Shown: positions 6,001 through 38,286, numbered from the stretch's first letter. The stretch is 64,000 nt of DNA from an uncultured Holophagaceae bacterium (GCA_903857495.1 CAIOFF010000020.1:1-64000), one strand, 5' to 3'. Program-made: numbers and translations. The notes: generated from the sequence alone by a model not told the origin.

Positions 6001-9000
6001 GCACCTGGACGGCCCCGGGCACGGCGGGTTCCTGCACCATCACGGCCACGTCCGTGGATGATCCCAGCAAGAGCGCCACGACCACGGTCACCGTGGTGGC
6101 CGCGCCCGTGGCATCTGGCTTGGTGGTTGCCCCTGCGGCGCCCACCCAGGGCAGCACCTTCACCTTGACGCCGACCTACACCGGCGGCCCTGGCACCCTC
6201 ACCTACGCGGGTGGCAGCCTGACCTGCCCGGCGACGGGCGTGGCCTCGGCGGCGATCACCGCCGACTGGGTGGGCGCGCGGACCTACACGCTGACCGTGA
6301 CCAACGCGCTGGGGGCCGTGGCGACCAGGACGGTCACCGTGACGCCGGCCGCCCCCTTCGTCATCGATGCTTTCACCGCAAACCGGTCGCTGGTGACCTT
6401 CGGCGGCTCTGCCACGGTGTCCTGGACCCTTAGCGGCCCCTCGCCCACGGCCCTGACCCTGGACGGCGCCAATGTCCTGGGCAACCTCAGCGCCCTGGTG
6501 GCGCCACGCAACCGGCAGGCCTTCACCCTGACGGGCACCGCCGGCGGCAACATCGCCACCCAGACCCTCAAGGTCGGCGCCCAGGGCGTGGACCTCCTCG
6601 CGGGAAGTCCGGGCGGGCCCGGGACGGTGGATGGCACAGGCCCGGCCGCGCGGTTCGATGCGCCCGCCGGCCTGGCCATGGACGCGGCCGGAAGCCTCTA
6701 TGTGGCGGACGCCAACAACCACACCATCCGCAAGATCACCTCAGCCGGGGCGGTGAGCACCTTGGCGGGACTGGCGGGAACTTCCGGTGCTGCGAATGGC
6801 ATGGGCACGGCCGCCCGGTTCAATAACCCCACGGGCGTGGCCGTGGACGCGGCCGGGAACGTCTATGTGGCGGATTCCGCCAACCACACCATCCGCAAGA
6901 TCAGCGCAGCCGGGCTGGTGAGCACCCTGGCGGGAACTGGCACCTATGGATACAAGGACGACACGGGCACATCCGCCCAATTCAACGGCCCCTCCGCCGT
7001 GGCCGTGGACGCGGCTGGGACCGTCTATGTGGCGGATGACGGCAACAATGTCATTCGGAAGATCAGCGGGGGGGTTGTGACCACCCTGGCAGGTGTGGCG
7101 GGAGGTTCGGGCTATGCCGATGGACCGGGTGCTTCCGCCAAGTTCTGGGCCCCTTCCGGTCTGGCCGTGGATGCGGCCATGGCCAACGTCTATGTGGTGG
7201 ATTCTGGCAACAACCGAATCCGGAGGATCATCCTCTCCACGGGTGCGGTGGAGACCCTGGCGGGTCAGGCCACGAGTGGTTCCACGGACGCGGTGGGCAC
7301 GGCTGCCAAGTTCAATCGCCCCGCCGGCGTGGCCCTGGACCCGACCGGATACCTCTATGTGGCGGATTCCTACAACATGACCATCCGCAAGATCACCCTC
7401 TCTTCGGGCCAGGTGACCACCCTGGCGGGTTGGGCGGGCTGGTCTGGGTCTGCGGATGGCCCCGGCATAAATGCCCGATTCCTTTATCCACGTGGGGTTG
7501 TCGCGGACGGGGCCGGGACGGTCTACGTGACGGACTCCCTCAACCACACCCTCCGCAGGATCGTCATCTCCTCGGGCGAAGTGAGCACCCTGGCGGGGCT
7601 GGTTGCAGCTTTCGGCAGTGCGGATGGCACGGGCGCGGCCGCCCAGTTCAAAAACCCCCAAGGCGTGGGTGTGGACGCGGCCGGGAACGCCTATGTGGCG
7701 GACACCGGTAGCAACACCATCCGCAAGATCACCCCTGCCGGGGTGGTAAGCACCCTGGCGGGGCTGGCGGGCTCTGCGGGAACCACGAACGGCACCAGTG
7801 GCGATCCCAGGACCGCCCGGTTCCACTCGCCCTCCGGCGTGGCCGTGGACACTGCCGGGAACCTCTATGTGGCAGACTCTGCCAACTACACCATCCGCAA
7901 GATCAGCTCTCTGGGCGTGGTGACGACCCTGGCGGGTTCGGTTGTTGGTGGCTATCTGGACGGCACGGGCACGGCCGCCCAGTTTGAGCTCTTCTCCAGT
8001 CTGGCGGTGGATCAGGACGGGAACGTCTACGTGGCGGATTCCTCCAATTCCACGATCCGCAAGATCACCCCCTTGGGGGTGGTGACCACCCTGGCGGGTC
8101 GGGCAGGGTATTCCGGATTCACGGACGCTACGGGCACGGCCGCCCGGTTCTTCTGGCCTCAGGGCGTGGCTGTGGACGCTACCGGGACGGTTTACGTGGC
8201 GGACTATCACACCATCCGCAAGATCACCCCTTTGGGGGTGGTGACCACCCTGGCGGGTTCAGCGGGACTGTCGGGTGCCACGGATGGCACGGGCTCGGCC
8301 GCCCGGTTCAACAACCCCAAGGACGTGGCCGTGGACGCGGTCGGGAACCTCTTCGTGGCGGACACGGACAACCACACCATCCGCAAGGTCACCTCGGCGG
8401 GGGTGGTGACCACCGTGGCCGGCCGCACCGGCGTGCAGGGATTCCAGCCAGGTCCGCTGCCCGGTGGTCTCAACGCTCCCCAGGGCCTGGCGCTCACGCC
8501 GGACGGCGACCTGGTGATCACCCAGGCCAATGCCGTGGTGCAGGTGACGGCGCCGACGGTGGCCCCGGCGGAACCCTCCCTGACCGTCTCCAGCAGCACC
8601 GTGGCCCGCGGGGCGACCTTCACCCTGACGCCGACCTTCGCCACGGGCACGGGCAGCATCGACCAGGGCGTGGGGGGCGTGAGTTCGCTGGAGGCCAAGA
8701 CGGTCACGGCGAACTGGACCGGGGCGCGGACCTTCACGCTGACGGTGACCTACCCGGATGGCACCACGGCCACGGCCCCGGTGACCGTGACCACGCAGGA
8801 TGTGTGGGTGCGCGCCATCTCGCCCGCCGCCGCCACCGTGACCGCCGGCACCAACACCGCCTTCAGTGCCACTGTCACCGGGGGCAACCTCGGCAAGGCG
8901 ACCTGGAGCAGCGGCGGCGTGGGCAGCTGGTCCAGCAACATCTGGACGGCCCCGGCCACGGCGGGCGGCCCCTATACGATCACGGCCACGTCCATGGATG

Positions 9001-11492: not shown

Positions 11493-11591
11493 GACTCGGA
11501 CCCCCAGGACGACGGATGCCGCCGCAGGCAGGGCTTTGGTTGTTCGAAGGGAATCCCTAATTCCTTGGGTGGCACAGGCGCAGGGGTTGGC

Positions 11592-12593
11592 TCAGGCGGG
11601 CCAGCCTCCGGCGGCGCGCAGGCCGGTCCACTCGGGCAGTCCCAGGCTGAGGTTGAGGTTCTGCACGGCCTGGGTGGCCATGCCCTTGCCCAGGTTGTCC
11701 AGGGCCACCAGGATGGCGCCGTGGCCGCCCTTGGCCGCGACCGCCACCTCCGCGAAGGCGCTGCCCACCGTCGCCGCCACCCGCGGCGACCCGTCCACGA
11801 TGCGCACAAAGAACCGTCCCGCATAGAAGTCCTCAAAACGGGCCCGCAGGGCCCCAAGTTCAATTCCCGCAGGAAGCGGAAATTGAACCGTGGCAAAGAT
11901 TCCCCGCACCATGGGCGCACTCTGCGGCACGAAGCTGAGGGGCGCCTCCCAGCCCAGGCTGGCCAGGGTGCGGAGCACCTCGGCCTCGTGCTGATGGCCC
12001 AGGATCTTGTAGGCCTTGAAGTCGTGGGCGCGGCTGGGGTGGTGGGTGGTCTCGGAGAGTGCGGCGCCGGAGCCGCTGGAGCCCGTGGCCGCGGTGACCG
12101 CCACGAAGGCGGGCTGCCACTGGGCCAGGGGCAGCAGGGCCAGCTGCAGGGCTGTGGCGAAACAGCCGGGGTTGGCGATGCGCTTGGCGCCTGCCATGCG
12201 CTCCGGCTGCCAGTCCACCAGGCCGTAGACCCAGGCGGGATCCAGGCGGAAGTCCGTGGAGAGGTCGATGACGATGAGCCGCTCCAGCAGGCCCGGGTGG
12301 GCCTGGGCCGCGGCTTCCAGCTCGGGCCAGAGCTTGCCCAGCTCACCGTGGGGCAGGGCCGAGAAGAGCACGGGCGCGGGGCTGCTGGCCAGGGCCTCCC
12401 AGTCCGGGGTGGCCTCGAATACACCGTCCACCAGGCCGCGCAGGTTCGGGTGCTGCGCGTGGAAGGGCTTGCCCGCGTGACTGCGGGCCGTGCCGCGCAG
12501 CGTCTGCACCGCCGGGTGGGTGGAGAGCCAGCGCAGCAGCTCGCCCCCGCCGTAGCCCGAGGCGCCGAGGATAAGGACATCAACCTGGGTCAT
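11592..12593 (-). CDS. argC: N-acetyl-gamma-glutamyl-phosphate reductase
   Basis: A 333-residue dehydrogenase for the third step of arginine synthesis: NADPH-dependent reduction of N-acylglutamyl phosphate to the semialdehyde. The N-terminal Rossmann motif LGASGYGGGELLRWL and the catalytic cysteine in NPGCFATALQLALLPL are present, as is the ArgC-typical GSSGSGAALSETTHHP loop. It is the last gene of the leftward arginine operon, 177 bp after the P-loop gene. Because the operon has a non-standard carbamoyltransferase, the acyl group carried by the substrate may be succinyl rather than acetyl. Confidence 0.93.
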   Translation of the reverse strand: MTQVDVLILGASGYGGGELLRWLSTHPAVQTLRGTARSHAGKPFHAQHPNLRGLVDGVFEATPDWEALASSPAPVLFSALPHGELGKLWPELEAAAQAHPGLLERLIVIDLSTDFRLDPAWVYGLVDWQPERMAGAKRIANPGCFATALQLALLPLAQWQPAFVAVTAATGSSGSGAALSETTHHPSRAHDFKAYKILGHQHEAEVLRTLASLGWEAPLSFVPQSAPMVRGIFATVQFPLPAGIELGALRARFEDFYAGRFFVRIVDGSPRVAATVGSAFAEVAVAAKGGHGAILVALDNLGKGMATQAVQNLNLSLGLPEWTGLRAAGGWPA

Positions 12594-25692: not shown

Positions 25693-28176
25693 TTGCGGCG
25701 CGCCCTGGTCCTGATCCCTGCTTTCTGTCTGGTCCTGGTGGGCCAGGAAACCCCGACGCCGCTGCTTCGGGTAGGAGCGCCCCTGCCCGTGGACCTGGAC
25801 CTGACCGGGGCCGAGCCGGCGGCCCTGCTGCCCCGCGACAACCGGGACGCGGCCCAGGTCGAGGCCGCCCGCCAGCGCTGGAACAGCCTGGTCGCGGGCC
25901 TGAAGGAGGCTCCGGCCGTGCGGCTGCGGCTGCCCCTCGGCGGGTCCCGCCTGCCGCTGCTGCTGGCGGCCGCCCAGGCCCTGAAAGCCCAATCCCCGGG
26001 CCAGCGTCTCTATCTGGCCCATGATCCCGGCGCGGCGCCCCTCCTGGCGGAGACCGCCTGGGGGGCGCTGGATGGCGGGGCCCTGCTGCCCGCGGACCTG
26101 AGCCTGGACGGGGCCTGGCGCGCCCAGCTGGCCCAGGCCCAGGGCACCTTCCCCGGGCGCCCCTGGACCCTGTGGCTGCCGAAGGACCCGGGCCCCCTGG
26201 CCTCGGCGCTCCTGGGCGACGGGGGACGGCTGGTGGTGCCTGCGGGAGGACCTGCGGCCGAGCTGGCCCGGCAGCTCCCTCCGGGCTTCACGGAGGTGGA
26301 GGGGGGCCTGGCAGACCTGACCGTGCGGCACCGGGGGGGCGAGGCCCGTCGCTGGACCTACGCCGGGGGCGCCTGGTCGGCGGCGGCCCTGCCGGGACCG
26401 CGCACGGAAGTGGCCGTGACCGGCGCCGAGGCCTACGACGTTGGCGCCCTGCTGGCCCGGCTCCGGGTGGCCCAGCTCCGGGGCCGGGCCGGGGTGCGCA
26501 CCCTGCAGGCCCGGGCGGACCTGGACCTGCACATCCAGGGCCAGAGCGGGCGCGGTGGGGATCTTGGCTTCAGCTTCCGCTACTTCGAGCAGGCCGGGGA
26601 GTGGCCCGAGCTGCTGCAGAAGGAGGTCCGCCTGAACGGCGTGAAGGCCAAGCTCGAGGGCGAGGTGCAGCTGCCCCTCATCGAGAGCCGCCGGTCCGTG
26701 TCCCTGCCCGTGGCGCTGGCCCTGACCGAGGGCTACCGCTACCGCGACGGCGGCCCGGCGGGACCGGGTCGGCGGCTCCTGCGCTTCGAGCCCGTGAGTC
26801 CTGATCCCTTGGCCTACAGCGGCGAGCTGGAGGTGGAGGAGGCCACGGGCAAGCTCCTGCTCGAGCGCCGGGAGCGCTCGGACATGCCGGGCACCGTCAA
26901 GAGTGAGCGCGAGATCCTCACCTACGGCGAGGTGGCCCCCGGGGTGCGGCGGCCCGTCACGGTGCAGTCCTTCGAGCGCTGGGTGAGCGCCGGGGGCGTG
27001 ATCCAGGTCCAGCGCCGCTTCACCTACCGGGACTTCGAGGTCAATGGCGAGCGCTTCGAGGCCGAGCGGGGGGCGGCCCGGACCTCGAAGGCCACCATGC
27101 TCAAGGTGACCCCCGAGGGGGCGCGCTACTACACCCGCCAGGAGGACGGCACCCGGAAGGTCGAGGAGAAGCCCCGCAGCAGCGGCCGGGCCCTGGCGGG
27201 CGTGGTGCTGGTGGACCCGGGCCTGACCCCGCCTGTGATGCCTCTGGGGGGCCTGCTCTACTTCGACTACGACGCCTTCGGCAAGGGCATCCAGCTGAAC
27301 GCGCTCACGGCGGTGGTGTTCAACACGGCCAGCGTCGCCATCCCGCGGGCGCTGGGCAGCTTCGATTTCGGCGCCAATGCCACGGCCCTGCTGCTGAAGA
27401 CCACCGAGCGGCCCGTGGTGAAGGGCGGGCTCTCGGACCATGACGGCGTGGGCCGGCGCTTCGGCCAGCTGGGCCTGGAGCTGGGCCGCGACCTGGGTCT
27501 CGGCTTCCGGCTTGAGGGCCGGGGGGACTTCGAGCTCGACGACTACAGCCTGGGTGACAGCAAGTACCGCACGCCGGGCTACGTCCTGCCGCCCTCGGGC
27601 CTCACCCGGGTGGGGACGCTCCAGGGCTCCTGGCTGTTCCGGGGCTTCCAGGTGCGGGCCTACCACGGCTGGGGGAAGCGGCCCGAGGGCAGCTACGGGA
27701 CTCCTCTGAACCCCCAGCAGGTGCCCGAGAACGGCGACTTCCGGCGCTGGGGCGGCAGCCTCAGCCTGGACCGGGAGGCCGTCCCGGGCGTCTGGCTCCG
27801 GGGCGAGGCCGGGTGGGCCGGAGGCCACGCCTTCGACCGCTTCAAGGCCCTGGATGTGGGTGGCATGGGGGGCAGTGTTCGGGTCGCGGGCATCCGCGCC
27901 AACGCCCTCGCCGCGGACCAGGTCACCTACGCCAAGACCGGCCTGGCCTTCCCCACGGGGCCGAGCCTGCGCCTGTCCCTGGACCTGGAATACGCCCGCT
28001 CCCGCAGCCTGGATGACCGGAAGACCTATGGCGTGAGCGGCCTGGGCATCACCGGCGACTTGCCCGGCTTTTGGTGGTTCACCGCCGTGCGGGTGGACCT
28101 CGGCGTGGGTCTCCACAGCGACATTGAGGGCGTGAAGGGCGTGAACGGCTACGTGGCGCTGCTGCGGGTCTTCTAA
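25693..28176 (+). CDS. Large predicted outer-membrane protein of unknown function
   Basis: An 827-residue protein starting at TTG with GGAGG just upstream and a signal peptide (RRALVLIPAFCLVLVGQ). The N-terminal ~300 residues are L/A/G-rich and not recognised. A beta-rich middle contains ATGKLLLERRERSD and LTYGEVAPGVRRP, like proteins that bind or carry lipoproteins or lipids. The last ~300 residues alternate polar and hydrophobic residues with many aromatic-ended strands and finish in LLRVF, the C-terminal phenylalanine typical of BAM substrates. A periplasmic domain plus a C-terminal beta-barrel is therefore likely. No family name is offered. Confidence 0.7.
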   Translation: MRRALVLIPAFCLVLVGQETPTPLLRVGAPLPVDLDLTGAEPAALLPRDNRDAAQVEAARQRWNSLVAGLKEAPAVRLRLPLGGSRLPLLLAAAQALKAQSPGQRLYLAHDPGAAPLLAETAWGALDGGALLPADLSLDGAWRAQLAQAQGTFPGRPWTLWLPKDPGPLASALLGDGGRLVVPAGGPAAELARQLPPGFTEVEGGLADLTVRHRGGEARRWTYAGGAWSAAALPGPRTEVAVTGAEAYDVGALLARLRVAQLRGRAGVRTLQARADLDLHIQGQSGRGGDLGFSFRYFEQAGEWPELLQKEVRLNGVKAKLEGEVQLPLIESRRSVSLPVALALTEGYRYRDGGPAGPGRRLLRFEPVSPDPLAYSGELEVEEATGKLLLERRERSDMPGTVKSEREILTYGEVAPGVRRPVTVQSFERWVSAGGVIQVQRRFTYRDFEVNGERFEAERGAARTSKATMLKVTPEGARYYTRQEDGTRKVEEKPRSSGRALAGVVLVDPGLTPPVMPLGGLLYFDYDAFGKGIQLNALTAVVFNTASVAIPRALGSFDFGANATALLLKTTERPVVKGGLSDHDGVGRRFGQLGLELGRDLGLGFRLEGRGDFELDDYSLGDSKYRTPGYVLPPSGLTRVGTLQGSWLFRGFQVRAYHGWGKRPEGSYGTPLNPQQVPENGDFRRWGGSLSLDREAVPGVWLRGEAGWAGGHAFDRFKALDVGGMGGSVRVAGIRANALAADQVTYAKTGLAFPTGPSLRLSLDLEYARSRSLDDRKTYGVSGLGITGDLPGFWWFTAVRVDLGVGLHSDIEGVKGVNGYVALLRVF

Positions 28177-28206: not shown

Positions 28207-30186
28207 GTGAAGATGCAAGACATCACCCTCATACTCGCGGCGGCGGGGTGCTGGATGGCTGCGGCCTTCCTACCCCTGGTCCCTCCTTTGAATGAGGGCC
28301 GGTTCAGCACCCTGCTGGGCGCCCTGGGCTCCCTGCTCGCCTTCCTCGCGGCTGCCCACGCCCTGCTGGGCGGGGTGCCTTCTCACCTCGATTTCCACTT
28401 CTGGCAGGGACCCGCCCGCCTCGAGCTGGACGCCCTCTCCGCGGCCTTCCTGCTGCCGCTGCACCTCGTGGCGGGGCTGGGGATCATCTACGGGGCAGAT
28501 TACTGGCCCATCACCCTCAGCAAGGGCTTCGGCCGGTCCCTGCGGTTCTTCTTCGGGTTCCTGGTCACGGCGATGACGCTGCTGTTCGTGACGCAGAACG
28601 GCCTGCTCTTCCTGGTGGCCTGGGAGATCATGGCCATCTCGGCCTTCTTCCTGGTGAACACGGAGCACCACCGGCCCGAGGTCCGCCGGGCCAGCTGGGT
28701 CTACCTCGTCTGCACCCACACGGGCACCCTGGCCATCACCGCCTCGGTGATTCTGCTGGCGCACCGGCTGGGGGGCTTCGCCTGGTCGCCGCTGCCGCCG
28801 GGTGCCCAGGGGTCCCTGGATGTATGGATCCTGGTGCTGGCGGTCCTCGGTTTTGCCTTCAAGGCGGGGCTGCTGCCCCTCCACTTCTGGCTGCCTGCCG
28901 CCCATGCGAGCGCCCCCAGCCATGTGTCCGCCATCCTGTCCGCCGTCATGCTGAAGACGGGCATCTACGGCCTGCTCCGGGTCTCCAGCCTGCTGCCCGG
29001 CGTACCTGCCTGGATGGGGGGAGGCCTGCTCACCCTTGGGGCCATGAGCGCGGTCTACGGCGTCTGGAACGCCCTGGCGCAGCGGGACTACAAGCGGCTG
29101 CTGGCCTACTCCAGCATCGAGAACCTGGGGATCATCACCATGGGCGTGGGCCTGGGCTGGACTGGCCGTGCCCTCGGGGATCCCTGGCTCACGGCCCTGG
29201 GCTTCGGCGGCGCGATCTTCCACGTCTGGAACCACGCGATCTTCAAGAGCCTGCTCTTCTTCGGCTCGGGCGCGCTGCTGCACGCCACGGGCACCCGGGA
29301 CATGGAGGGCCTGGGGGGCCTCGCGGCTCGCATGCCCCGAACGGCCCTGGTCCTGCTGCCGGGAGTGCTTGCCGTCGCCGCCCTGCCGCCCTTCAACGGC
29401 TTCCTCAGCGAGTGGTTCCTCTACCGGGGGCTTTTCGCCTCCCTGCGGGGCGGCGACGCCTGGTCCTCGGGTCTGGCGCTGCTGGCCCTGGTCTTCACGG
29501 GCGGCCTCGCCGCCGTGGCCTTCGCCCGGTTCTACGGCGTGATCTTCCTGGGGACGCCGCGCTCTGAGGCCGGGGCCCACGCCCATGACCCCTCGCGGCT
29601 CATGCTGGTGCCCATGGGGATCCTGGCCGCGCTGACCCTGGGCATCGGCCTGCTCAGCCTCCCCCTGCTGCCGGTCCTGGATCGGGTCGTCGCTGTGGTC
29701 GCTCCAGGGCAGGCTCTGGCCCGGGGGCTGCCTCTGGCCACCCTGGTGGGTCGGGACTTCCGGATGCTCCTGCTGCTGGAAGGGCTCCTGCTGGTCTTCG
29801 GCGGGCTGGCCCTGGCCTGGCTGCGCCCGGGGGCCCAGACCGCCGAGGCCCCGCCCACCTGGGACTGCGGCTACGCGGCGCCCACGGCCCGGATGCAGTA
29901 CACGGGCAGCTCCTTCGCGGAGGGATGGTCGGTATTCCTGCCGGGGTTGACCCAGCGGGTGCGGTCGATCCGGGCGCTCTTTCCGCGGGCCCACTCCTTC
30001 CACACCCGCATCCAGGACGCGGTGGGCGACGGCCTCCTGGCGCCCTGGCTGGAGCGGGTGGCCGCCCGGCTGTTCCGGTTCCACCGGTTCCAGACGGGCT
30101 ACCTCTCGGTCTACATCCTCTACGTGCTGGTGACCCTCCTGGGCGTCTTCCTCTGGCTCCTGCTGCGCGCGAGGCTGTCGCTGTGA
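28207..30186 (+). CDS. Ehr/hydrogenase-4 membrane subunit, HyfB-like (first copy)
   Basis: A 659-residue Mrp-antiporter/NuoL-like subunit of the HyfB/HycC type. Ion-path residues are visible: the glutamate in FLVAWEIMAISAF and the lysine in GFAFKAGLLPLHFWLP, followed by LLAYSSIENLGII. The HycC-type C-terminal tail PTWDCGYAAPTARMQYTGSSF precedes a last membrane span. It should move H+ or Na+ when driven by redox chemistry in the peripheral arm. Start is GTG at 28207 (AGGGG 10 nt upstream) or ATG at 28213. It is the first gene of the seven-gene operon and overlaps its paralogue by 4 bp. Confidence 0.88.
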   Translation: MKMQDITLILAAAGCWMAAAFLPLVPPLNEGRFSTLLGALGSLLAFLAAAHALLGGVPSHLDFHFWQGPARLELDALSAAFLLPLHLVAGLGIIYGADYWPITLSKGFGRSLRFFFGFLVTAMTLLFVTQNGLLFLVAWEIMAISAFFLVNTEHHRPEVRRASWVYLVCTHTGTLAITASVILLAHRLGGFAWSPLPPGAQGSLDVWILVLAVLGFAFKAGLLPLHFWLPAAHASAPSHVSAILSAVMLKTGIYGLLRVSSLLPGVPAWMGGGLLTLGAMSAVYGVWNALAQRDYKRLLAYSSIENLGIITMGVGLGWTGRALGDPWLTALGFGGAIFHVWNHAIFKSLLFFGSGALLHATGTRDMEGLGGLAARMPRTALVLLPGVLAVAALPPFNGFLSEWFLYRGLFASLRGGDAWSSGLALLALVFTGGLAAVAFARFYGVIFLGTPRSEAGAHAHDPSRLMLVPMGILAALTLGIGLLSLPLLPVLDRVVAVVAPGQALARGLPLATLVGRDFRMLLLLEGLLLVFGGLALAWLRPGAQTAEAPPTWDCGYAAPTARMQYTGSSFAEGWSVFLPGLTQRVRSIRALFPRAHSFHTRIQDAVGDGLLAPWLERVAARLFRFHRFQTGYLSVYILYVLVTLLGVFLWLLLRARLSL

Positions 30187-32129
30187 GCCTCTACCTCCTC
30201 TCACTGCTGCTGGCGGCGGGCTCCGGGATCCCGGGCCTGTTCCTGCGGCGCCGCGGGGCGGAGGTGGCGGCGGGCCTGATGACGGCCTCGGCGCTCGCTG
30301 GAATCGGGGCGGCCCTGGGGGTGCTGGCGGGTGGACCCGTGCCTAGCCTCCGCCTGCCGGCCCTGGCCCTGACCTCCCCCAGCCTGCTGGTCCTCGATGC
30401 CATCGCCGCCTGGTTTCTGATCCCCGTGCTGCTGCTGGCCGCCTGTGGTGCCTGGTATGGGGTCCGCTACTGGGAGGATGCGCATGGCCACCCCCGCTGG
30501 GTGCGCCTGGTCTTCGGGGGCCTGACCGCCGCCCTGATTCTGCTGGTCGCCGCGGCCCACACCTGGCTGTTCCTGCTGGCCTGGGAGGCCATGGCCATCG
30601 GGGCCTTCTTTCTGGTGAGCACCGAGGACCGCCTGCCGGAGACCCGCCGGGCGGCCTGGATCTACCTGGTGTCCACCCACACGGGGACGCTCTGTCTGAT
30701 CGGCGCCTTCGCGCTCCTGGCGGGGGTGGCCGGAACCTGGGATCTGGGTGCGCTGCCCCGGGGCTTCGCCTCATCGAGGCTGGGCACGCAGACCTTCCTG
30801 CTGTTCATGGTCGGGTTCGGCCTGAAGGCGGGTGTGATGCCCATCCACATCTGGCTGCCCCCGGCCCACGCGGCAGCCCCGAGCCACGTGTCCGCGCTGA
30901 TGTCCGGTGTGCTGATCAAGATGGGGATCCTGGGCATGGTGCGGCTGATCGCCTGGGTGCCGGATCCCCCCCTCTGGTGGGGGGCGCTGTTCCTGGGGCT
31001 GGGCGGGGTGTCCGGCATTCTGGGGGTGGCCTTCGCCCTGGGGCAGCACGACCTGAAGCGCCTGCTGGCCTACCACTCCATCGAGAACATCGGCATCATC
31101 CTCCTGGGCCTGGGCCTCGGGCTGATCGGCAAGAGCACCAGCCAGTCCGCCCTGGCCGCGCTGGGCTTCGCGGGGGCCCTGCTGCACGTGCTGAACCACA
31201 GCCTCTTCAAGGGGCTGCTCTTCCTGGCGGGCGGGTCCGTGGTGCACGCCACGGGCACGCGGAACCTGGAGCGGATGGGCGGCCTCGCCAAGGCCATGCC
31301 CTGGACCTCCGCGGCCTTCCTGACCGGCTCCTGGGCCATCTGCGGCCTGCCGCCCCTCAACGGCTTCGTGAGTGAGTGGTTCATCTACCTGGGCGCCTTC
31401 CGCGCCATGGCGGGAGCCCGCTGGCCCTGGTCCGTGGGGGTCCTGGCGGCGCTGGCGCTCATCGGTGCATTGGCCCTGGCCTGCTTTGCCAAGGCCTACG
31501 GGACTGCCTTCCTGGGGACGCCCCGCACCCCCGCTGCCGCCGCCGCCCACGAAGCCCCGCGCATGATGCTGCTGCCCATGGCGGTGCTGGCCGGGGCCTG
31601 TGTCCTGATCGGCGTGTTCCCCATGGTGATCGCCTCGGCCCTGGACCGGGCCATCGCCGGGCTGGGCCAGGCTCTGCCGGCCAGCTCCCGGCTGGCGCAC
31701 CTGCCCCTGGTGACGGTGCTGGCCCTGACCCTGGCGCTGCTGGCCCTGGGGCTGGCCCGCTGGGCTTGGGCGGGGCGCCGCTCCGAGCCAGTCCCGGCGG
31801 AGCTGCCCACCTGGGACTGCGGCTATGCGGAAGCGCTGCCCAGGGCCCAGTACACGGCGTCATCGTTCGCGGATGGTCTGGTCACCGGCGCCCGCTGGGC
31901 CCTGTTCCCGAAGGTCCATGAGGCCCAGGTGCAGGGTCCCTTCCCGGAGCCCGCCCGCTTTGAAAGCCATGTGCCCGATCTCGTGCTGGACCGGGTCCTG
32001 GATCCCGCCTTCCGCCTGGGCTCCCGGGGCTTGGCGCTCCTGCACGTCTTCCAGACGGGCCAGCTCCCGGTCTACCTGCTCTACGTGCTGCTCACGCTCC
32101 TCTTTCTGCTGATCTGGATGGTGGTCTGA
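30183..32129 (+). CDS. Ehr/hydrogenase-4 membrane subunit, HyfB-like (second copy)
   Basis: A 648-residue paralogue of the preceding subunit, beginning with GTG in a GTGA overlap with its stop codon. It has the same landmarks: FLLAWEAMAIGAF with the conserved glutamate, GFGLKAGVMPIHIWLPPAHA with the conserved lysine, LLAYHSIENIGIILLG, then WDCGYAEALPRAQYTASSF and a final span. Two HyfB-type subunits in tandem plus the HyfF-like one give three antiporter-like channels. This suggests a large ion-translocating arm, as in complex I rather than formate hydrogenlyase 1. Confidence 0.87.
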   Translation: MSLYLLSLLLAAGSGIPGLFLRRRGAEVAAGLMTASALAGIGAALGVLAGGPVPSLRLPALALTSPSLLVLDAIAAWFLIPVLLLAACGAWYGVRYWEDAHGHPRWVRLVFGGLTAALILLVAAAHTWLFLLAWEAMAIGAFFLVSTEDRLPETRRAAWIYLVSTHTGTLCLIGAFALLAGVAGTWDLGALPRGFASSRLGTQTFLLFMVGFGLKAGVMPIHIWLPPAHAAAPSHVSALMSGVLIKMGILGMVRLIAWVPDPPLWWGALFLGLGGVSGILGVAFALGQHDLKRLLAYHSIENIGIILLGLGLGLIGKSTSQSALAALGFAGALLHVLNHSLFKGLLFLAGGSVVHATGTRNLERMGGLAKAMPWTSAAFLTGSWAICGLPPLNGFVSEWFIYLGAFRAMAGARWPWSVGVLAALALIGALALACFAKAYGTAFLGTPRTPAAAAAHEAPRMMLLPMAVLAGACVLIGVFPMVIASALDRAIAGLGQALPASSRLAHLPLVTVLALTLALLALGLARWAWAGRRSEPVPAELPTWDCGYAEALPRAQYTASSFADGLVTGARWALFPKVHEAQVQGPFPEPARFESHVPDLVLDRVLDPAFRLGSRGLALLHVFQTGQLPVYLLYVLLTLLFLLIWMVV

Positions 32130-32130
32130 G

Positions 32131-33060
32131 ATGTCCCAAGCCCTGGTGCCCGCCCTGCTGAACCTCCTCTTCCGCGCCTTTGTGGTGCTCCTGCTGCCGC
32201 CGCTCATTCCCGGCCTCATCACCAAGATCAAGGCCTGGATGGCTGGCCGCTCCGGGCCGCCGGTGCTGCAGCTCTACTACGACCTGGCCAAGCTGGCCCG
32301 CAAGCAGGCGGTCTTCAGCCGGACCACCACCTGGGTCTTCCTGGCGGGCCCCGTGGGCACCGTGGCGGCGCTGCTGGTGGCCTCGCTGCTGATCCCGCTG
32401 GGGCACACCGCGCCGCTGCTCGCCTTCGAGGGCGACGTGATCCTCTTCGCCTACCTGCTTGGCCTCGGTCGGTTCCTCACGGTGCTTTCGGCCCTGGACA
32501 CAGGATCTGCCTTCGAGGGCATGGGCGCCGCGCGGGAAGTCTCCTTCAGCGCCCTGGCGGAGCCGGCGCTCTTCTTCGGTTTCGCGGCCCTGGCCCGGGC
32601 CACGGGCAGCCTGTCGCTCACGCCCATGCTGCAGTCCCACGGCATGTGGACCGCCGGGCATCTCTCGGGGCCGCTGATGCTGATCCTGGCCGGGTGGGGC
32701 ATCGTCTTCCTCGCCGAGAACTCCCGCATCCCGGTGGATGATCCCAACACGCACCTGGAGCTGACCATGATCCACGAGGTCATGGTGCTCGACCACTCGG
32801 GCCGTCCCCTGGCGCTGATCCTCTACGGAGCCAGCCTCAAGCTGGTGGTGCTGGGGGCCCTGCTGGTGGACCCCCTGCTGCCGGTGCTCAGCAAGGGCTG
32901 GCTGAACGGGCTGGCCTTCCTCGGCGGGATCACCCTGCTGGCGGTGGTGGTGGGCCTGGTGGAGAGCACCACGGCCCGCTTCCGCATGAACAAGGTGCCC
33001 CAGTTCCTGGTGGCGGGGGTGCTGGCCTCGGCCTTCGCCTTCCTGCTGCTGCTGGTCTAG
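32131..33060 (+). CDS. Ehr/hydrogenase-4 NuoH-like subunit (HyfC/HycD-like)
   Basis: A 309-residue membrane subunit of the NuoH/HycD family, which forms the junction between redox and pump modules. The family segments GSAFEGMGAAREVSFSALAEP and ENSRIPVDDPNTHLELTMIHE carry the acidic residues lining the quinone/ferredoxin-side cavity. An N-terminal RKQAVFSRTT loop also matches HycD. It begins 1 bp after the second HyfB-like gene and is followed 9 bp later by the HyfE-like gene. Confidence 0.9.
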   Translation: MSQALVPALLNLLFRAFVVLLLPPLIPGLITKIKAWMAGRSGPPVLQLYYDLAKLARKQAVFSRTTTWVFLAGPVGTVAALLVASLLIPLGHTAPLLAFEGDVILFAYLLGLGRFLTVLSALDTGSAFEGMGAAREVSFSALAEPALFFGFAALARATGSLSLTPMLQSHGMWTAGHLSGPLMLILAGWGIVFLAENSRIPVDDPNTHLELTMIHEVMVLDHSGRPLALILYGASLKLVVLGALLVDPLLPVLSKGWLNGLAFLGGITLLAVVVGLVESTTARFRMNKVPQFLVAGVLASAFAFLLLLV

Positions 33061-33069
33061 GAGGATCAG

Positions 33070-33705
33070 ATGTCCCCGGATTTCCTCATCGCCCTAACCA
33101 TGCTCACCAACTTCACCCTGGTGGCCACCAGCCGCGTCAACAAGGCCATCCAGCTGGCGGTCTTCCAGGGCATCCTCATGGGCCTCATCCCCCTGGCCAT
33201 GGGCCTCGGGAAGCACACGCACATCCTGCTGCTGGCCCTGGTCGCCATCGCGGTGAAGGGCGGGTTCATCCCCTACCTGTTCCGGCGTGCCCTGCGCCAG
33301 GTGAAGATCCGCCGCGAGGTGGATCCCTATGTGGGCTACACCGTGTCCCTGATGCTCTGCGCCGCCGGGACGGGGCTGAGCCTGGTGCTGGCCCACGCCC
33401 TGCCGCTCAAGGCCGGGACGACCCCGACCTTCCTGGTGCCCGCCGCCCTGGCCACGCTGTTCACGGGGTTCCTGCTGCTGGTGTCGCGGCGGACGGCCCT
33501 CACCCAGGTGGTGGGCTATCTGGTGTTGGAGAACGGCATCTACCTCTTCGGCCTGCTGCTGGTGGAGGAGATGCCGGTGCTGGTAGAGACGGGCATCCTG
33601 CTGGACCTCTTCGTGGGCGTGTTCGTGATGGGGATCGTGATCAACCACATCCACATGACCTTCGACTCCACGGACACGGGGTTCCTGGCTGAGCTGAAGG
33701 ACTGA
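33070..33705 (+). CDS. Ehr/hydrogenase-4 HyfE-like subunit
   Basis: A 211-residue membrane protein of the HyfE type, the hydrogenase-4 counterpart of NuoK. It contains a long hydrophobic array with GYLVLENGIYLFGLLL, whose glutamate matches the NuoK-like conserved acid, and VFVMGIVINHIHMTF near the end. A strong ribosome site (TAGGAGGATCAG) precedes the ATG. It lies between the HyfC-like and HyfF-like genes with gaps under 10 bp. Confidence 0.88.
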   Translation: MSPDFLIALTMLTNFTLVATSRVNKAIQLAVFQGILMGLIPLAMGLGKHTHILLLALVAIAVKGGFIPYLFRRALRQVKIRREVDPYVGYTVSLMLCAAGTGLSLVLAHALPLKAGTTPTFLVPAALATLFTGFLLLVSRRTALTQVVGYLVLENGIYLFGLLLVEEMPVLVETGILLDLFVGVFVMGIVINHIHMTFDSTDTGFLAELKD

Positions 33706-33708
33706 CCG

Positions 33709-35205
33709 ATGGCCCTGCTCCTCATCCTTCTCCCTCTGCTGGCGGCCGCGGTCGCCGTGTTCATCAAGGTGCCCGCGCTCCGGGTGCGGGTGCTGCCGGT
33801 GACGGCCCTGGTGCACCTCGGGCTGCTGCTGGTGGTGCTGCGCGGCTGGCGGGAGCTGCCTCTCAACGCCTGGCTCGGCCTGGACGCCCTGGGGGGCTGG
33901 GTGCTGCTGGTGATCAGCGTGCTGTTTACCATCTGCGCGCTCTACGCGCCGTCCTACCTGGCCCTGCGGCCCGACCGCGACCACCGGGTCTTCACCGTCT
34001 GCCTCCTCGCCTTTCTGGGCCTGGCCTCGCTGCTCTGCCTGGCCCGGCACCCCGGGGTGGCCTGGGTGGCCCTGGAGACCATGACGCTCACGACGGCCCC
34101 CCTGATCTACTTCAACCACAATCGCCACTCCGTCGAGGCCACCTGGAAGTATCTGGTCCTTGGCTCCGTGGGCATCGCCCTGGCGCTGCTGGGCACGCTC
34201 TTCGTGGCCTACGCGGCCCACATGGGCAACCTTGAGGAGCCCCTCCACTACACCCGCCTCATGGCCGAGGGCGAGCGGCTCTCGCGGCCCTGGCTCCGTG
34301 CAGGCTTTGTCCTGACCCTGGTGGGCTACGGCACCAAGATGGGCCTGGCCCCGCTGCACAGCTGGAAGCCCGATGCCTACGGCGAGACGCCGGGCATCGT
34401 GGGGGCCCTGCTGGCGGGCGGGGTCACGAGCTGCGCCTTCCTGGCCCTGCTCCGCATCTATGGGGTGGTGGCCGCCGCGGGGGAGGGGGCCTTCGCCCGG
34501 GAGCTCTTCCTCGGCTTCGGCATCCTCTCCATGGCCTGGGCCCTGGTCTTCATGGTGGGGCAGCTGGACTTCAAGCGGCTGCTGGCCTACTCCAGCGTCG
34601 AGCACATGGGCATCCTGGTCTTTGGCATCGGGATCGGCGGCCTGGCCGCGCGCTTCGCGCTGTTCCACCTGGCGGCGAACGCCCTGGTCAAGAGCGTGCT
34701 CTTCCTGTCCGCGGGCAACATCCACCGCAGCTATGCCAGCAAGCAGCTGCCCCAGGTGACCGGCGCCATCCGGCGCACGCCGGTCTCGGCGGGACTCTTC
34801 TTCCTGGGCTTCCTCGCCATCACCGGCCTGCCGCCCTTCGCGCCGTTCATCAGCGAGTTCAACATCGCCTCCGCGGCCCTCACCCTGGGACACCCCCTCG
34901 CCGGCACCCTGTTCCTGCTCCTGCTGGGCGGCATCTTCCTGACCATGAGCGACACGGTGATGCAGGTGGTCTTCGGCGTCCCCAGTCCCCAGCGGGTGCG
35001 GACCCCCTACAAGGACACCTTCGCCACCACGGCGCCCCTGGTGGTCGCCATGGTGCTGGCGCTGGGCCTCGGTCTGCACCTGCCCGCGCCCCTGCGGGCG
35101 ATGCTGGAGGCGGCTTCCCAGACCGTTGACGGAGGTCCCCCCGCCACGTCCGCAAAGGTGGCCGAGGCCCCGCGGGGTCTGGCCTTGATGGAGGTGCGCC
35201 CATGA
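33709..35205 (+). CDS. Ehr/hydrogenase-4 HyfF-like antiporter subunit
   Basis: A 498-residue NuoN/NuoL-like subunit of the HyfF type. Key elements are VALETMTLTTAPLIYF with the membrane glutamate, GTKMGLAPLHSWKPDAYGE with the channel lysine, and LLAYSSVEHMGILVFG. ANALVKSVLFLSAGNIH is typical of HyfF. It is the third antiporter-like subunit of the operon and overlaps the large-subunit gene by 4 bp (ATGA). Confidence 0.9.
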   Translation: MALLLILLPLLAAAVAVFIKVPALRVRVLPVTALVHLGLLLVVLRGWRELPLNAWLGLDALGGWVLLVISVLFTICALYAPSYLALRPDRDHRVFTVCLLAFLGLASLLCLARHPGVAWVALETMTLTTAPLIYFNHNRHSVEATWKYLVLGSVGIALALLGTLFVAYAAHMGNLEEPLHYTRLMAEGERLSRPWLRAGFVLTLVGYGTKMGLAPLHSWKPDAYGETPGIVGALLAGGVTSCAFLALLRIYGVVAAAGEGAFARELFLGFGILSMAWALVFMVGQLDFKRLLAYSSVEHMGILVFGIGIGGLAARFALFHLAANALVKSVLFLSAGNIHRSYASKQLPQVTGAIRRTPVSAGLFFLGFLAITGLPPFAPFISEFNIASAALTLGHPLAGTLFLLLLGGIFLTMSDTVMQVVFGVPSPQRVRTPYKDTFATTAPLVVAMVLALGLGLHLPAPLRAMLEAASQTVDGGPPATSAKVAEAPRGLALMEVRP

Positions 35206-36707
35206 CCCGCCGCGCCCTGAAGATCGTGAAGAACGGCCAGCCCCTGGCCCTGGCCGAGCTGGCCCCGCTGGCCGTCGCCGACTTCCGGGACGCGATCCTC
35301 GCGGCGGTGCACGAGGGGGATCGTCTGGCCTGTCTCTGCGCGGACGCGCAGCTCCGGCTCTTCGCGGTGCTGGCGGATGACGCGGGCAAGACGCTGCGCG
35401 TGGCCCGCACCCAGCTGGACCAGCCCAGGTATCCGGCCCTGACGCCGGCCTGCCCCCAGGCCCACCTGTTCGAGCGGGAGCTGGCGGAGCAGTACGGCAT
35501 CGTTCCCGAGGGGCATCCCTGGCTGAAGCCCGTGCGCTACCACCGGCCCTGGACGGGCGGCGAGTCCCAGCCGCAGCCCCTGCCCGGGGTGATGGACTTC
35601 TACCGGGTGGAGGGCGACGAGGTGCATGAGGTCGCCGTGGGTCCGGTGCATGCGGGCGTCATCGAACCCGGGCACTTCCGCTTCCAGTGCCACGGCGAGA
35701 CGGTCTTCCACCTGGAGATCGCCCTGGGCTACCAGCACCGCGGCGTGGAGCAGGCCCTGGAGGGCGGGCCCCACCCCCTCAGCCTCAAGCAGGCGGAGAC
35801 CGCTGCCGGGGACACCAGCATCGCCCATGTCTGGGCCTACTGCCGGAACCTTGAGGGCCTGGCTGGGGTTAAGGTGTCCACCCGGGCGGACCGGGTGCGC
35901 GGCGTGGCGCTGGAGCTGGAGCGGGCCGCCAACCATGTGGGCGACCTGGGTGCGCTCTCGGGAGATGTGGGCTTCCTGCCCACGGCTTCCTTCTGCGGCC
36001 GCCTCCGGGGCGACTGGCTGAACCTGAGCGCCGAGGTCTGCGGCAGCCGCCTGGGCCGGAACTGGCTGCGGCCCGGGGGTCTCCAGCACGACCTGGACCA
36101 CGCCCTGGCCGAACGCCTGCTGCCCCGGCTTGAAAAGGCCTGGGTCGAGACCCAGGACGCGCTGGAGCTGCTCTGGGGCGCGGCCTCGGCCATGATCCGC
36201 TTCGAGGTGGCGGGGCACCTGACGCCGGTCCAGGCCCGGGAGATCGGGCTGGTGGGAGTCCCGGCCCGGGCCTGCGGGATCTCCCTGGACGTGCGCCATG
36301 ACCATCCCTTCGGCCCCTACAAGGACCATGCGGTGGTGTCGGTGCTGGCCGAGAGTGGCAACGTCCACAGCCGGGCCTGGGTGCGGTGGCGCGAGCTCTC
36401 CGAGAGTCACCGCTACCTGGCCGCGGCCCTGAAGGACCTGGGTCACACGCCCTGCGATCCGAAGCCGTTACCCCTGCCCGGGCTGGCGGCTGACTGCCTC
36501 TGCGTCTCCCTGATCGAAGGCTGGCGCGGCGAGGTGCTGCACCTGGCGATCACGGATGGCGGGGGACGCTTCGCGCGCTACAAGATCGTGGACCCCTCCT
36601 TCCACAACTGGTTCGGGCTGGCGCTGGCCCTGCGGGGCGAGCAGATCTCGGATTTCCCCCTCTGCAACAAGAGCTTCAATCTCTCCTACTGCGGCCACGA
36701 CCTGTGA
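35202..36707 (+). CDS. Ehr large subunit, NuoCD/HycE-like, [NiFe] ligands lost
   Basis: A 501-residue fusion of a NuoC-like domain (about 1-120) and a NuoD/HycE-like domain. FRFQCHGETVFHLEIALGYQHRGVE is typical of the family. Active group 4 hydrogenases bind NiFe through RxCGxC and DPCxxC. Here the first site reads TAAGDTSIAH (residues 200-209): Gly203 and His209 are kept, but both cysteines are replaced by Ala202 and Thr205. The second reads FNLSYC (492-497), keeping only Cys497. It therefore should not bind NiFe and belongs with energy-converting-hydrogenase-related (Ehr) complexes of unknown reaction. No hyp maturation or fdh genes occur in the window. Confidence 0.9.
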   Translation: MTRRALKIVKNGQPLALAELAPLAVADFRDAILAAVHEGDRLACLCADAQLRLFAVLADDAGKTLRVARTQLDQPRYPALTPACPQAHLFERELAEQYGIVPEGHPWLKPVRYHRPWTGGESQPQPLPGVMDFYRVEGDEVHEVAVGPVHAGVIEPGHFRFQCHGETVFHLEIALGYQHRGVEQALEGGPHPLSLKQAETAAGDTSIAHVWAYCRNLEGLAGVKVSTRADRVRGVALELERAANHVGDLGALSGDVGFLPTASFCGRLRGDWLNLSAEVCGSRLGRNWLRPGGLQHDLDHALAERLLPRLEKAWVETQDALELLWGAASAMIRFEVAGHLTPVQAREIGLVGVPARACGISLDVRHDHPFGPYKDHAVVSVLAESGNVHSRAWVRWRELSESHRYLAAALKDLGHTPCDPKPLPLPGLAADCLCVSLIEGWRGEVLHLAITDGGGRFARYKIVDPSFHNWFGLALALRGEQISDFPLCNKSFNLSYCGHDL

Positions 36708-36714
36708 GGAAGCC

Positions 36715-37485
36715 ATGATGCACATCCTGCTTTCCCGCTGGCGTCAGGGCCACCGCACCCTCCCTTATCCCAAGGAGCTGCCAGACCTCCCGGCCCGCTT
36801 CCAGGGCCTGCCCCGAATCGAGGCGGCGAAGTGTCCGGAGGCGTGTCGCCTCTGCGCGGAGGCCTGTCCCGTGGCAGCCATCGGCTTCGGTCCTGGCGGA
36901 CCCAGCCTGGACCTGGGCCGCTGCGTGTTCTGTCCCGCCTGCGTCGAGGCCTGCCCCGAGGGCGCCCTCGCCTTCACCGGGGACCACCGCCTGGCCACCA
37001 ACACCCGTGAGGCCCTGGTCACGACCGGGGCCGACCGCTACGCCCGCGCCGAGGCCCTGGGCGCGGAGCTCAAGCGCGTGCTGGGGCGGTCCCTGAAACT
37101 GCGGGTGGTGAGCGCGGGCGGCTGCAACGGCTGCGAGGTGGATGTGAACGTTCTGGGGACGCTGGCCTGGGACCTGGGGCGCTTCGGGATCCAGTACGTG
37201 GCCTCGCCGCGGCATGCCGATGGCCTGCTGGTCACGGGGCCGGTCACCCGCAACATGGAGCTGGCCCTGCGGAAGACCTACGACGCGGTGCCCGGACCCA
37301 AGATCGTTATCGCCGTGGGCGCCTGCGCCATCCAGGGCGGCCCCTACTGCTACCGGGAGGAGCAGCTGGGCGGTGTCGGCAGCGTGCTGCCCGTGGACCT
37401 CTACATCCCCGGCTGTCCGCCCCACCCGCTGACCATCCTGGATGGGCTGCTGCGGCTGCTCGGAAAACTGAACGAGCCCCAGTGA
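36715..37485 (+). CDS. Ehr fused ferredoxin-small subunit (HyfH-HyfI-like)
   Basis: A 256-residue fusion of a two-cluster ferredoxin and a NuoB-like small subunit, which are normally separate genes (hyfH/hycF and hyfI/hycG). Residues 40, 44, 47, 51 and 70, 73, 76, 80 are cysteines for two [4Fe-4S] clusters. Cysteines 137, 140, 204 and 234 (GGCNGC, GACAIQG, PGCPPHP) ligate the proximal cluster. The fusion gives a short electron wire from a soluble donor to the altered large subunit. Start is ATG at 36715 or 36718, after GAGGA. It is the last gene of the operon. Confidence 0.9.
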   Translation: MMHILLSRWRQGHRTLPYPKELPDLPARFQGLPRIEAAKCPEACRLCAEACPVAAIGFGPGGPSLDLGRCVFCPACVEACPEGALAFTGDHRLATNTREALVTTGADRYARAEALGAELKRVLGRSLKLRVVSAGGCNGCEVDVNVLGTLAWDLGRFGIQYVASPRHADGLLVTGPVTRNMELALRKTYDAVPGPKIVIAVGACAIQGGPYCYREEQLGGVGSVLPVDLYIPGCPPHPLTILDGLLRLLGKLNEPQ

Positions 37486-37519: not shown

Positions 37520-37704
37520 CATTCAACATTCGGCGGTTGGCACCCAACGTTAGGCGCGGCGCTCAGGTGCGCAAGAAAAACTCATATGTCCCATGGATTT
37601 TGCCGATGGGACATCAAGCAGATCCAGTTCTGCCGAAAGAACAAACTCACGCACATCAACCTGATCAGGGATGGAGCCTTGTTCCCCAATCTCATGGAGG
37701 AGAT
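37520..37704 (+). promoter_or_regulatory. AT-richer leader with hairpins and GTTAGGC core
   Basis: This gap precedes the small repeat-protein gene and is visibly less GC-rich than the flanks. It has a small hairpin GTTGG/CCAAC (37536-37548) abutting GTTAGGC (37549-37555), which fits the GTTRRRY core of integron attC sites. It also has a perfect 9-bp inverted repeat ATGTCCCAT/ATGGGACAT (37586-37594 and 37606-37614, 11-nt loop). GGAGGA lies just before the ATG at 37705. No promoter or known riboswitch was recognised. Confidence 0.45.
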
Positions 37705-38286
37705 ATGTCCAGTTTCAGCATTGCCGCTAATTCTCGTTCGATGCCACAGATCAACCAGAGCCAGATGGCGAAGATGGCCCAGATGAAGAGCCAATTCGAT
37801 CAGCTTGGCAAAGCGCTGGATTCGGGCGACCTAACGGCGGCCAAACAAGCCTACAGCGCCATTCAACAAAACGCTCCGCAGGGAGCGGGTGATCAGGGCC
37901 CCATGGCCCAAATGAAGAGCAAGATCGATCAACTTGGCCAGGCATTGGATTCAGGGGATCTTGCAGCCGCAAAAACGGCCTACAGCGCCATTCAGCAGAG
38001 CGCTCCCAAAGGAGGGCCCAAGGGCGCTCCTCCTGCTGGCGGCGGTGCCCCGCCTTCGACCGGAGCCACCTCGTCTGCTTCTGGAGGCAAATCCTCCAGT
38101 TCTTCAATCAGCACGGACCCCATGGATTTGAATGGCGATGGTACGGTTTCTGCCCCTGAAAAGTTGATCTACTCCATCACACATCCTGATGTGACAAAGA
38201 AGGACTCAGATGGTGCAAAGGCCCAGGAACAGGCTCAAGACACGAGTTCTACGCAGGCGAAAACGAAAGTAGATACCTATGCCTAA
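37705..38286 (+). CDS. Small repeat protein with EF-hand-like motif, island gene
   Basis: A 193-residue hydrophilic protein without a signal peptide. Two near-identical repeats of about 40 residues (MKSQFDQLGKALDSGDLTAA then QAYSAIQQ, and MKSKIDQLGQALDSGDLAAA) are followed by a Gly/Pro/Ser-rich linker and DLNGDGTVSAPEKL, which fits a calcium-binding EF-hand or dockerin-type loop. The start MSSFSIAAN has an excellent GGAGGA site; an upstream in-frame ATG does not. Codon use and base composition differ from the neighbours, which suggests transfer. The LGxALxSGxLxAAxxAY repeat is seen in uncharacterised proteins of several phyla, as I recall. Function is unknown. Confidence 0.75.
   Translation: MSSFSIAANSRSMPQINQSQMAKMAQMKSQFDQLGKALDSGDLTAAKQAYSAIQQNAPQGAGDQGPMAQMKSKIDQLGQALDSGDLAAAKTAYSAIQQSAPKGGPKGAPPAGGGAPPSTGATSSASGGKSSSSSISTDPMDLNGDGTVSAPEKLIYSITHPDVTKKDSDGAKAQEQAQDTSSTQAKTKVDTYA

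Follow-up and report, generated by a model that had tools for sequence, protein, structure and literature searches.

The window, a stretch of 64,000 nucleotides that forms part of contig C20 of an uncultured Holophagaceae genome (3.70 Mb, 98.5% complete), carries between positions 28207 and 37485 an operon of seven abutting genes on the same strand, all with open frames. Gene calls and profile matches bore out the coordinates, the gene order and the motifs TAAGDTSIAH and FNLSYC reported in an initial annotation of this DNA. The features are as follows:

28207..30186, + strand: EhrA-1, HyfB-like antiporter-type subunit (PF00361, E 4e-49; best NCBIfam match hydrogenase 4 subunit B)
30183..32129, + strand: EhrA-2, second HyfB-like subunit (PF00361; best match HyfB)
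32131..33060, + strand: EhrB, HycD/HyfC/NuoH-like membrane anchor (PF00146, E 2e-32)
33070..33705, + strand: EhrC, HyfE-like membrane subunit (NCBIfam NF008556, E 5e-24)
33709..35205, + strand: EhrD, HyfF-like antiporter-type subunit (PF00361; best match hydrogenase 4 subunit F)
35202..36707, + strand: EhrL, NuoC-NuoD fusion, HycE/HyfG-like large subunit without NiFe ligands (PF00346 and PF00329)
35802..35816, + strand: former first CxxC of EhrL, residues A201-T205 (AAGDT), with A202 and T205 in place of Cys and D204 invariant in 80 loci
36669..36704, + strand: C-terminal Ehr signature of EhrL, KSFNLSYCGHDL, residues 490-501, replacing SLDPCxxCTDR
36715..37485, + strand: EhrS, small subunit; a HyfH-like ferredoxin with two [4Fe-4S] clusters, joined to a NuoB/HyfI-like domain whose proximal cluster has four Cys (PF01058 and Fer4 families)

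EhrA-1 starts at either GTG 28207 or ATG 28213 and contains a TWDCGY motif; its stop is overlapped by the GTG start (30183) of EhrA-2, with which it shares 44% identity. The operon had been credited with every membrane subunit of hydrogenase-4: the HyfB, HycD, HyfE and HyfF types are indeed present, but the HyfD type is missing and two HyfB types stand instead. Among the matches listed, close relatives of the operon belong to Geothrix and uncultured Holophagaceae. Neither Rfam nor tRNA scanning gave a match in the window. Upstream of EhrA-1, an 827-aa protein without a Pfam match (25693-28176) is conserved at this position in several loci of the Holophagaceae (cluster 11), and just downstream of EhrS lies a gene for a 249-aa low-complexity protein (37537-38286) that contains an internal repeat and a stretch resembling an EF-hand, DLNGDGTVSAPE.

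Comparison of EhrL with HycE by phmmer and alignment with HyfG by MAFFT agreed in pairing HycE C241, C244, C531 and C534 with EhrL A202, T205, S495 and G498. By these alignments, none of the four Cys ligands of the NiFe site is kept in EhrL; all are lost. The initial annotation had counted three of the four as gone, but the Cys that ends FNLSYC (C497) lies one residue out of register and aligns with a non-ligand Ser, and other Ehr subtypes have Ala or Ser at this position. EhrL terminates in GHDL, in line with the position of TDR, whereas HyfG and HycE extend ~32 residues further, and it has no protease-processed C-terminal extension of the kind by which group 4 [NiFe] hydrogenases are recognised. 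The prediction that the fold would nevertheless be intact was upheld by an AlphaFold model of the 35202-36707 product (pLDDT 89.3, pTM 0.91), whose best PDB match was HycE (7z0s_E; Z 41.0, rmsd 2.5 Å over 481 residues), followed by complex I 49-kDa/NuoCD chains (Z 36-38). Model confidence fell below a pLDDT of 50 only at the beta1-beta2 loop (148-153) and at residues 497-501.

In a large-subunit tree of 31 rows, including 22 Ehr sequences, NiFe hydrogenases and NuoD, the 22 Ehr rows formed one clade (support 100/99) apart from both NiFe hydrogenases and NuoD, with EhrL of the window inside it. The gene content also matches the Ehr cluster of Geobacter sulfurreducens (Coppi 2005, as cited in PMC7894505 and PMC13194489), where GSU0739-0745 encode EhrA-1, A-2, B, C, D, L and S (PMC7894505), the same seven genes including two copies of EhrA. 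The reading of the operon as Ehr with its NiFe site dismantled thus stood, and the literature agrees that Ehr is a known group without an assigned function (PMC6349859, PMC10284858, PMC10432482). The operon is a type I (Geobacter-type) Ehr of a Geothrix-like member of the Holophagaceae. EhrL of Geobacteraceae (L067, L111) falls within the clade of the window at ~52-58% identity and shares its invariant Cys and C-terminal signature.

Type I, comprising the window, Geobacter, Planctomycetota and Verrucomicrobiota sequences and one Variovorax copy, combines a two-cluster ferredoxin and a proximal cluster with extra EhrL Cys at positions 163, 280, 488 and 497. Type II (Rhizobium, Burkholderia, Cupriavidus, Azospirillum and Methylovirgula) lacks the ferredoxin domain, C163 and C280 but has the proximal cluster. 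Allomeiothermus silvanus and Mycobacterium branderi form a third set, which has lost the four proximal Cys and keeps one ferredoxin cluster; the two lie apart in the tree, where the branch of M. branderi is long and its position unsure. In the two copies on A. silvanus pMESIL01 (L121:4966-12141 and L133:3978-11153) and the one on the M. branderi plasmid (L130:5883-13322), the proximal Cys of EhrS are replaced by T/D/E/S and N/D/D/A, leaving neither NiFe nor N2. A further locus from the same class as the window (L025, on contig C7 of genome G025) encodes an Ehr-like large subunit that is 31% identical and has the motifs AGST and SVAEND, next to an EhrS that keeps one ferredoxin cluster and the proximal cluster. 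EhrA genes could be counted in 56 related loci with sufficient upstream DNA: 27 carry two and 29 carry one.

Ehr is widespread: a scan of GTDB species genomes yielded at least 567 confirmed stretches, and conservation was calculated from the best 80 of these, drawn from Acidobacteriota, Geobacter relatives, Planctomycetota, Verrucomicrobiota, Myxococcota, Hydrogenedentota and others. EhrL identity across phyla was 51-60%, and I154, E155, G203, D204, H209, H245, D255 and R442 were near- or fully invariant, as was the C-terminal signature NKSFNLSYCGxDL. Cys stood at position 202 alone in two of the 80 loci, and the full ligand set occurred in none; C84 was also conserved (0.97) but belonged to the search pattern and was excluded as independent evidence. 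Sequencing error or chance as the cause of the Cys loss was excluded, the same residues being found in 80 independent loci. Measured against the two closest relatives, dN/dS was 0.00-0.16 (about 0.1) for all seven genes, values that mark the Geobacter/Geothrix-type Ehr as a complex that is under purifying selection. A scan of IMG/VR for EhrL found no relative.

All 12 FeS Cys of EhrS (eight ferredoxin, four proximal) are kept at at least 96% in 77 loci, and an electron wire is therefore selected for. The CxxC spacing of its proximal cluster is of hydrogenase type; adjacent Cys such as those of cluster N2 in complex I are missing, the corresponding Cys lying two residues apart in CNGC. The residues that serve substrate protons in HycE, namely E193, R478, D529, H284, E437 and R395 (PMC9474812), correspond to EhrL E155, R442, N493, H245, E398 and R356, conserved at 100, 100, 92.5, 100, 100 and 95%, respectively. 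The canopy Asp (HycE D529) is the sole change among them, mostly to Asn (N493); with the other equivalents at 95-100%, a route for protons to the cavity therefore survives. In the membrane arm, EhrA-1 keeps TM5 E140, TM7 K219, TM8 K250 and TM12 E402, EhrA-2 keeps E132, K212, K243 and E395, and EhrD keeps E123, K210 and E383, such that all three antiporter-type subunits have the Glu of TM5, the Lys of TM7 and the Glu of TM12 known from NuoM and HyfB/F. EhrB E144, D203 and E210 match three of the acidic E-channel residues, NuoH E157, D213 and E220. The quinone ligands of complex I, in contrast, are missing: Nqo4 H38 and Y87 are replaced by I154 and G203, each in 80 of 80 loci. At the position of the Arg next to the proximal cluster, all 80 type I sequences have T, S, A or V, and nearly all of types II and III have Arg.

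These residues set Ehr apart from each of its characterised relatives. With E. coli Hyf (formate hydrogenlyase-2) and FHL-1 (Hyc, 7z0s) it shares the fold, the NuoC-NuoD fusion, a HyfB/C/E/F-type arm, the proton relay residues and the spacing of the proximal cluster, but it has no NiFe ligands, no C-terminal processing extension and no HyfD, for which a second HyfB stands instead; HyfH and HyfI are fused, and the operon is without FdhF, HyfA and maturation genes. Complex I (Nuo/Nqo) also lacks NiFe and has the same fold (Z 36-38), and its D139 equivalent and antiporter residues are kept in Ehr, which forms a separate clade and has no H38, Y87, adjacent N2 Cys or NADH module. The membrane-bound sulfane reductase MBS (6u8y) is another NiFe-less relative without H38 and Y87, ferredoxin-linked and ion-pumping as is predicted here for Ehr; it depends for catalysis on a proximal cluster with three Cys, keeps two of the four NiFe Cys and lacks the equivalent of MbhL E21 (PMC7684303). 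Ehr shows the opposite on all three counts, with four proximal Cys in EhrS, none of the four NiFe Cys in EhrL and the E21 equivalent present as E155. Because the complex I residues are absent and the MBS traits reversed, Ehr should be filed as neither, though it may work like either.

Family searches of other contigs of the same genome found HypD (contig C6), a group 1 hydrogenase and a Hox-like locus, so nickel maturation exists in this genome. The initial annotation was right that no hyp or formate dehydrogenase genes lie near the operon, the only matches being HypD on C6 and PF00384 proteins on C42, C34 and C70; given HypD and true [NiFe] hydrogenases elsewhere in the genome, the absence of hyp genes from the neighbourhood says little. 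PF00384 picks out NapA, a PhsA/Psr-like protein and one sub-cutoff match, and no Mo formate dehydrogenase reached the cut-off in a family search of the 98.5% complete genome. Genes of the futalosine route to menaquinone (MqnA/D-type) are present. The complex I genes are split unusually between two contigs: C69 (L136) carries nuo genes for 11 subunits but no nuoEFG, and nuoABCDEF lie on C5 (L135, L142), where membrane subunits H-N were undetected in the surrounding 37 kb.

An intact electron wire, proton route and pumps beside a lost NiFe site fit a ferredoxin-oxidising, proton-pumping complex. Our best explanation, held tentatively and at somewhat less than even confidence, is that ferredoxin powers the proton-coupled reduction of a quinone-like acceptor inside the emptied cavity, which in turn would drive proton pumping. 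Reduced ferredoxin would dock on the ferredoxin-like half of EhrS and pass electrons through the two [4Fe-4S] clusters and the four-Cys proximal cluster to the EhrL cavity where the NiFe site once lay. At this site, residues other than those of complex I would hold the acceptor, a small organic molecule and most likely menaquinone, during its reduction, with protons arriving over the retained hydrogenase route (E155 in the beta1-beta2 loop, canopy R442 and the relay H245-E398-R356). The resulting change in charge would be transmitted via EhrB to EhrA-1, EhrA-2 and EhrD, leading to proton pumping. The data establish what the subunits are, that the ligands are lost, that the cluster Cys and the residues for pumping and proton relay are conserved, and that selection is purifying; we infer the ferredoxin donor, the quinone-like acceptor, the proton as the pumped ion and the direction of electron flow.

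In favour of this reading are the retained wire, proton route and pump residues, the low dN/dS, an operon without a linked donor module, the menaquinone genes and the failure to find a Mo formate dehydrogenase in the genome. Against it stand the exchange of H38 and Y87 for I154 and G203, the missing adjacent N2 Cys pair, the canopy Asp that is mostly Asn (N493) and, in type I, a Thr in place of the Arg on the side of the proximal cluster. The 11-subunit Nuo without NuoEFG could already carry out ferredoxin:quinone chemistry in this organism, and other Ehr subtypes lack a ferredoxin domain or even the proximal cluster, so that redox drive is not universal in the group. The residue map narrows the question of the acceptor raised by the initial annotation: wire and proton route are kept, and the absence of complex I quinone ligands and of the MBS catalyst argues against both a canonical complex I quinone site and an MBS sulfur site. 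If found, the acceptor would supply a further step that links hydrogenase to complex I in respiratory evolution.

A different solution to the emptied site, which we regard as unlikely, is a new Cys-ligated centre built from C163, C280, C488 and C497 of EhrL, be it an FeS cluster, a metal or a redox disulfide, that replaces NiFe or adjoins the proximal cluster and reduces the acceptor. Conservation of these Cys in type I (79/80, 80/80, 79/80 and 78/80, respectively) is consistent with such a centre, as is the occurrence of all four in the distant Variovorax type I sequence, which has a full ferredoxin domain. Their gain accompanies the disappearance of the Arg next to the proximal cluster, and in types II and III C163 is absent and the set is never complete. 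However, the four Cys may lie far apart in the fold, position 497 is Ala in one type I sequence (L092), Rhizobium-type Ehr keeps C488 and M. branderi keeps C280, and since type I is one clade the association may reflect a single event.

Directly upstream of EhrA, 36 of the 45 type I loci that could be tested outside the Holophagaceae (within L057-L117) carry a gene of ~230 aa, often overlapping EhrA, that fuses an excisionase-type HTH_17 domain to PTS_EIIA_2. Clustering of neighbours was confounded by shadow ORFs in the GC-rich DNA, and these counts rest on an HMM check. The gene is absent upstream in all 17 Holophagaceae loci and in the window, which sets them apart from Geobacter, and one query run without a positive control found none in the window's own genome. 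We found no literature on an HTH-EIIA gene beside Ehr; it is a likely regulator. A more specific proposal, in which type I combines a new Cys-ligated redox centre at the dismantled NiFe site, an acceptor new to complex I relatives and PTS-EIIA-type control, seems improbable. The lineage-specific invariant Cys of EhrL and the linked HTH-EIIA gene are new details that offer two experimental handles.

PTS-Ntr EIIA proteins are tied to potassium homeostasis, and an HTH-EIIA gene as a usual part of type I operons would suit a redox-independent or redox-gated ion antiporter of Mrp-like kind, with the peripheral arm as regulator or structural cap. Ehr of Allomeiothermus and M. branderi, in which membrane subunits are kept without the four proximal Cys, points the same way. 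We nevertheless think this a poor prospect for type I, where the cluster Cys are invariant or nearly so across many phyla, as a non-redox role would not require.

An MBS-like sulfur (polysulfide) reductase, with the proximal cluster as catalyst, is less probable still. MBS is the best documented NiFe-less ion-pumping relative (PMC7684303) and the PhsA/Psr-like protein suggests sulfur chemistry in the genome, but EhrS has four Cys with hydrogenase spacing where MBS has three, EhrL has none of the four NiFe Cys, two of which are left in MBS, and the E21 equivalent missing from MBS is kept as E155. Very unlikely, too, is a formate-driven respiratory complex of Ehr with formate dehydrogenase, as proposed for Margulisbacteria (PMC6349859) and suggested for Geobacter, whose Ehr was more abundant on formate (PMC7894505). 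The failure to find a Mo formate dehydrogenase among the PF00384 proteins of the genome argues against an obligate formate partner. Within the genus, 13/18 genomes with Ehr and 3/7 without it encode a formate dehydrogenase, an association that is not significant (Fisher p 0.20), and the clustered neighbourhoods of Ehr loci showed neither a recurrent formate dehydrogenase gene nor a recurrent electron-input module. That Ehr is a decaying hydrogenase relic, already non-functional as stated for Geobacter, where ehrA-2 and ehrB acquired missense mutations in the course of long-term growth on electrodes (PMC13194489), is hardly credible despite the lost NiFe ligands and as a general statement is refuted by purifying selection (dN/dS about 0.1), intact frames, 51-60% EhrL identity across phyla and residues, including a new signature, that are invariant across 80 loci.

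Two plasmids carry Ehr operons in unusual company. On a Variovorax plasmid (L120), the type I operon (4899-12183) is followed ~3 kb away by an apparently type II operon from 15595 on, and on Methylovirgula pHY1 (L134) a second F-type ATP synthase operon (1-3201) lies divergently beside a type II Ehr (3869-10974).
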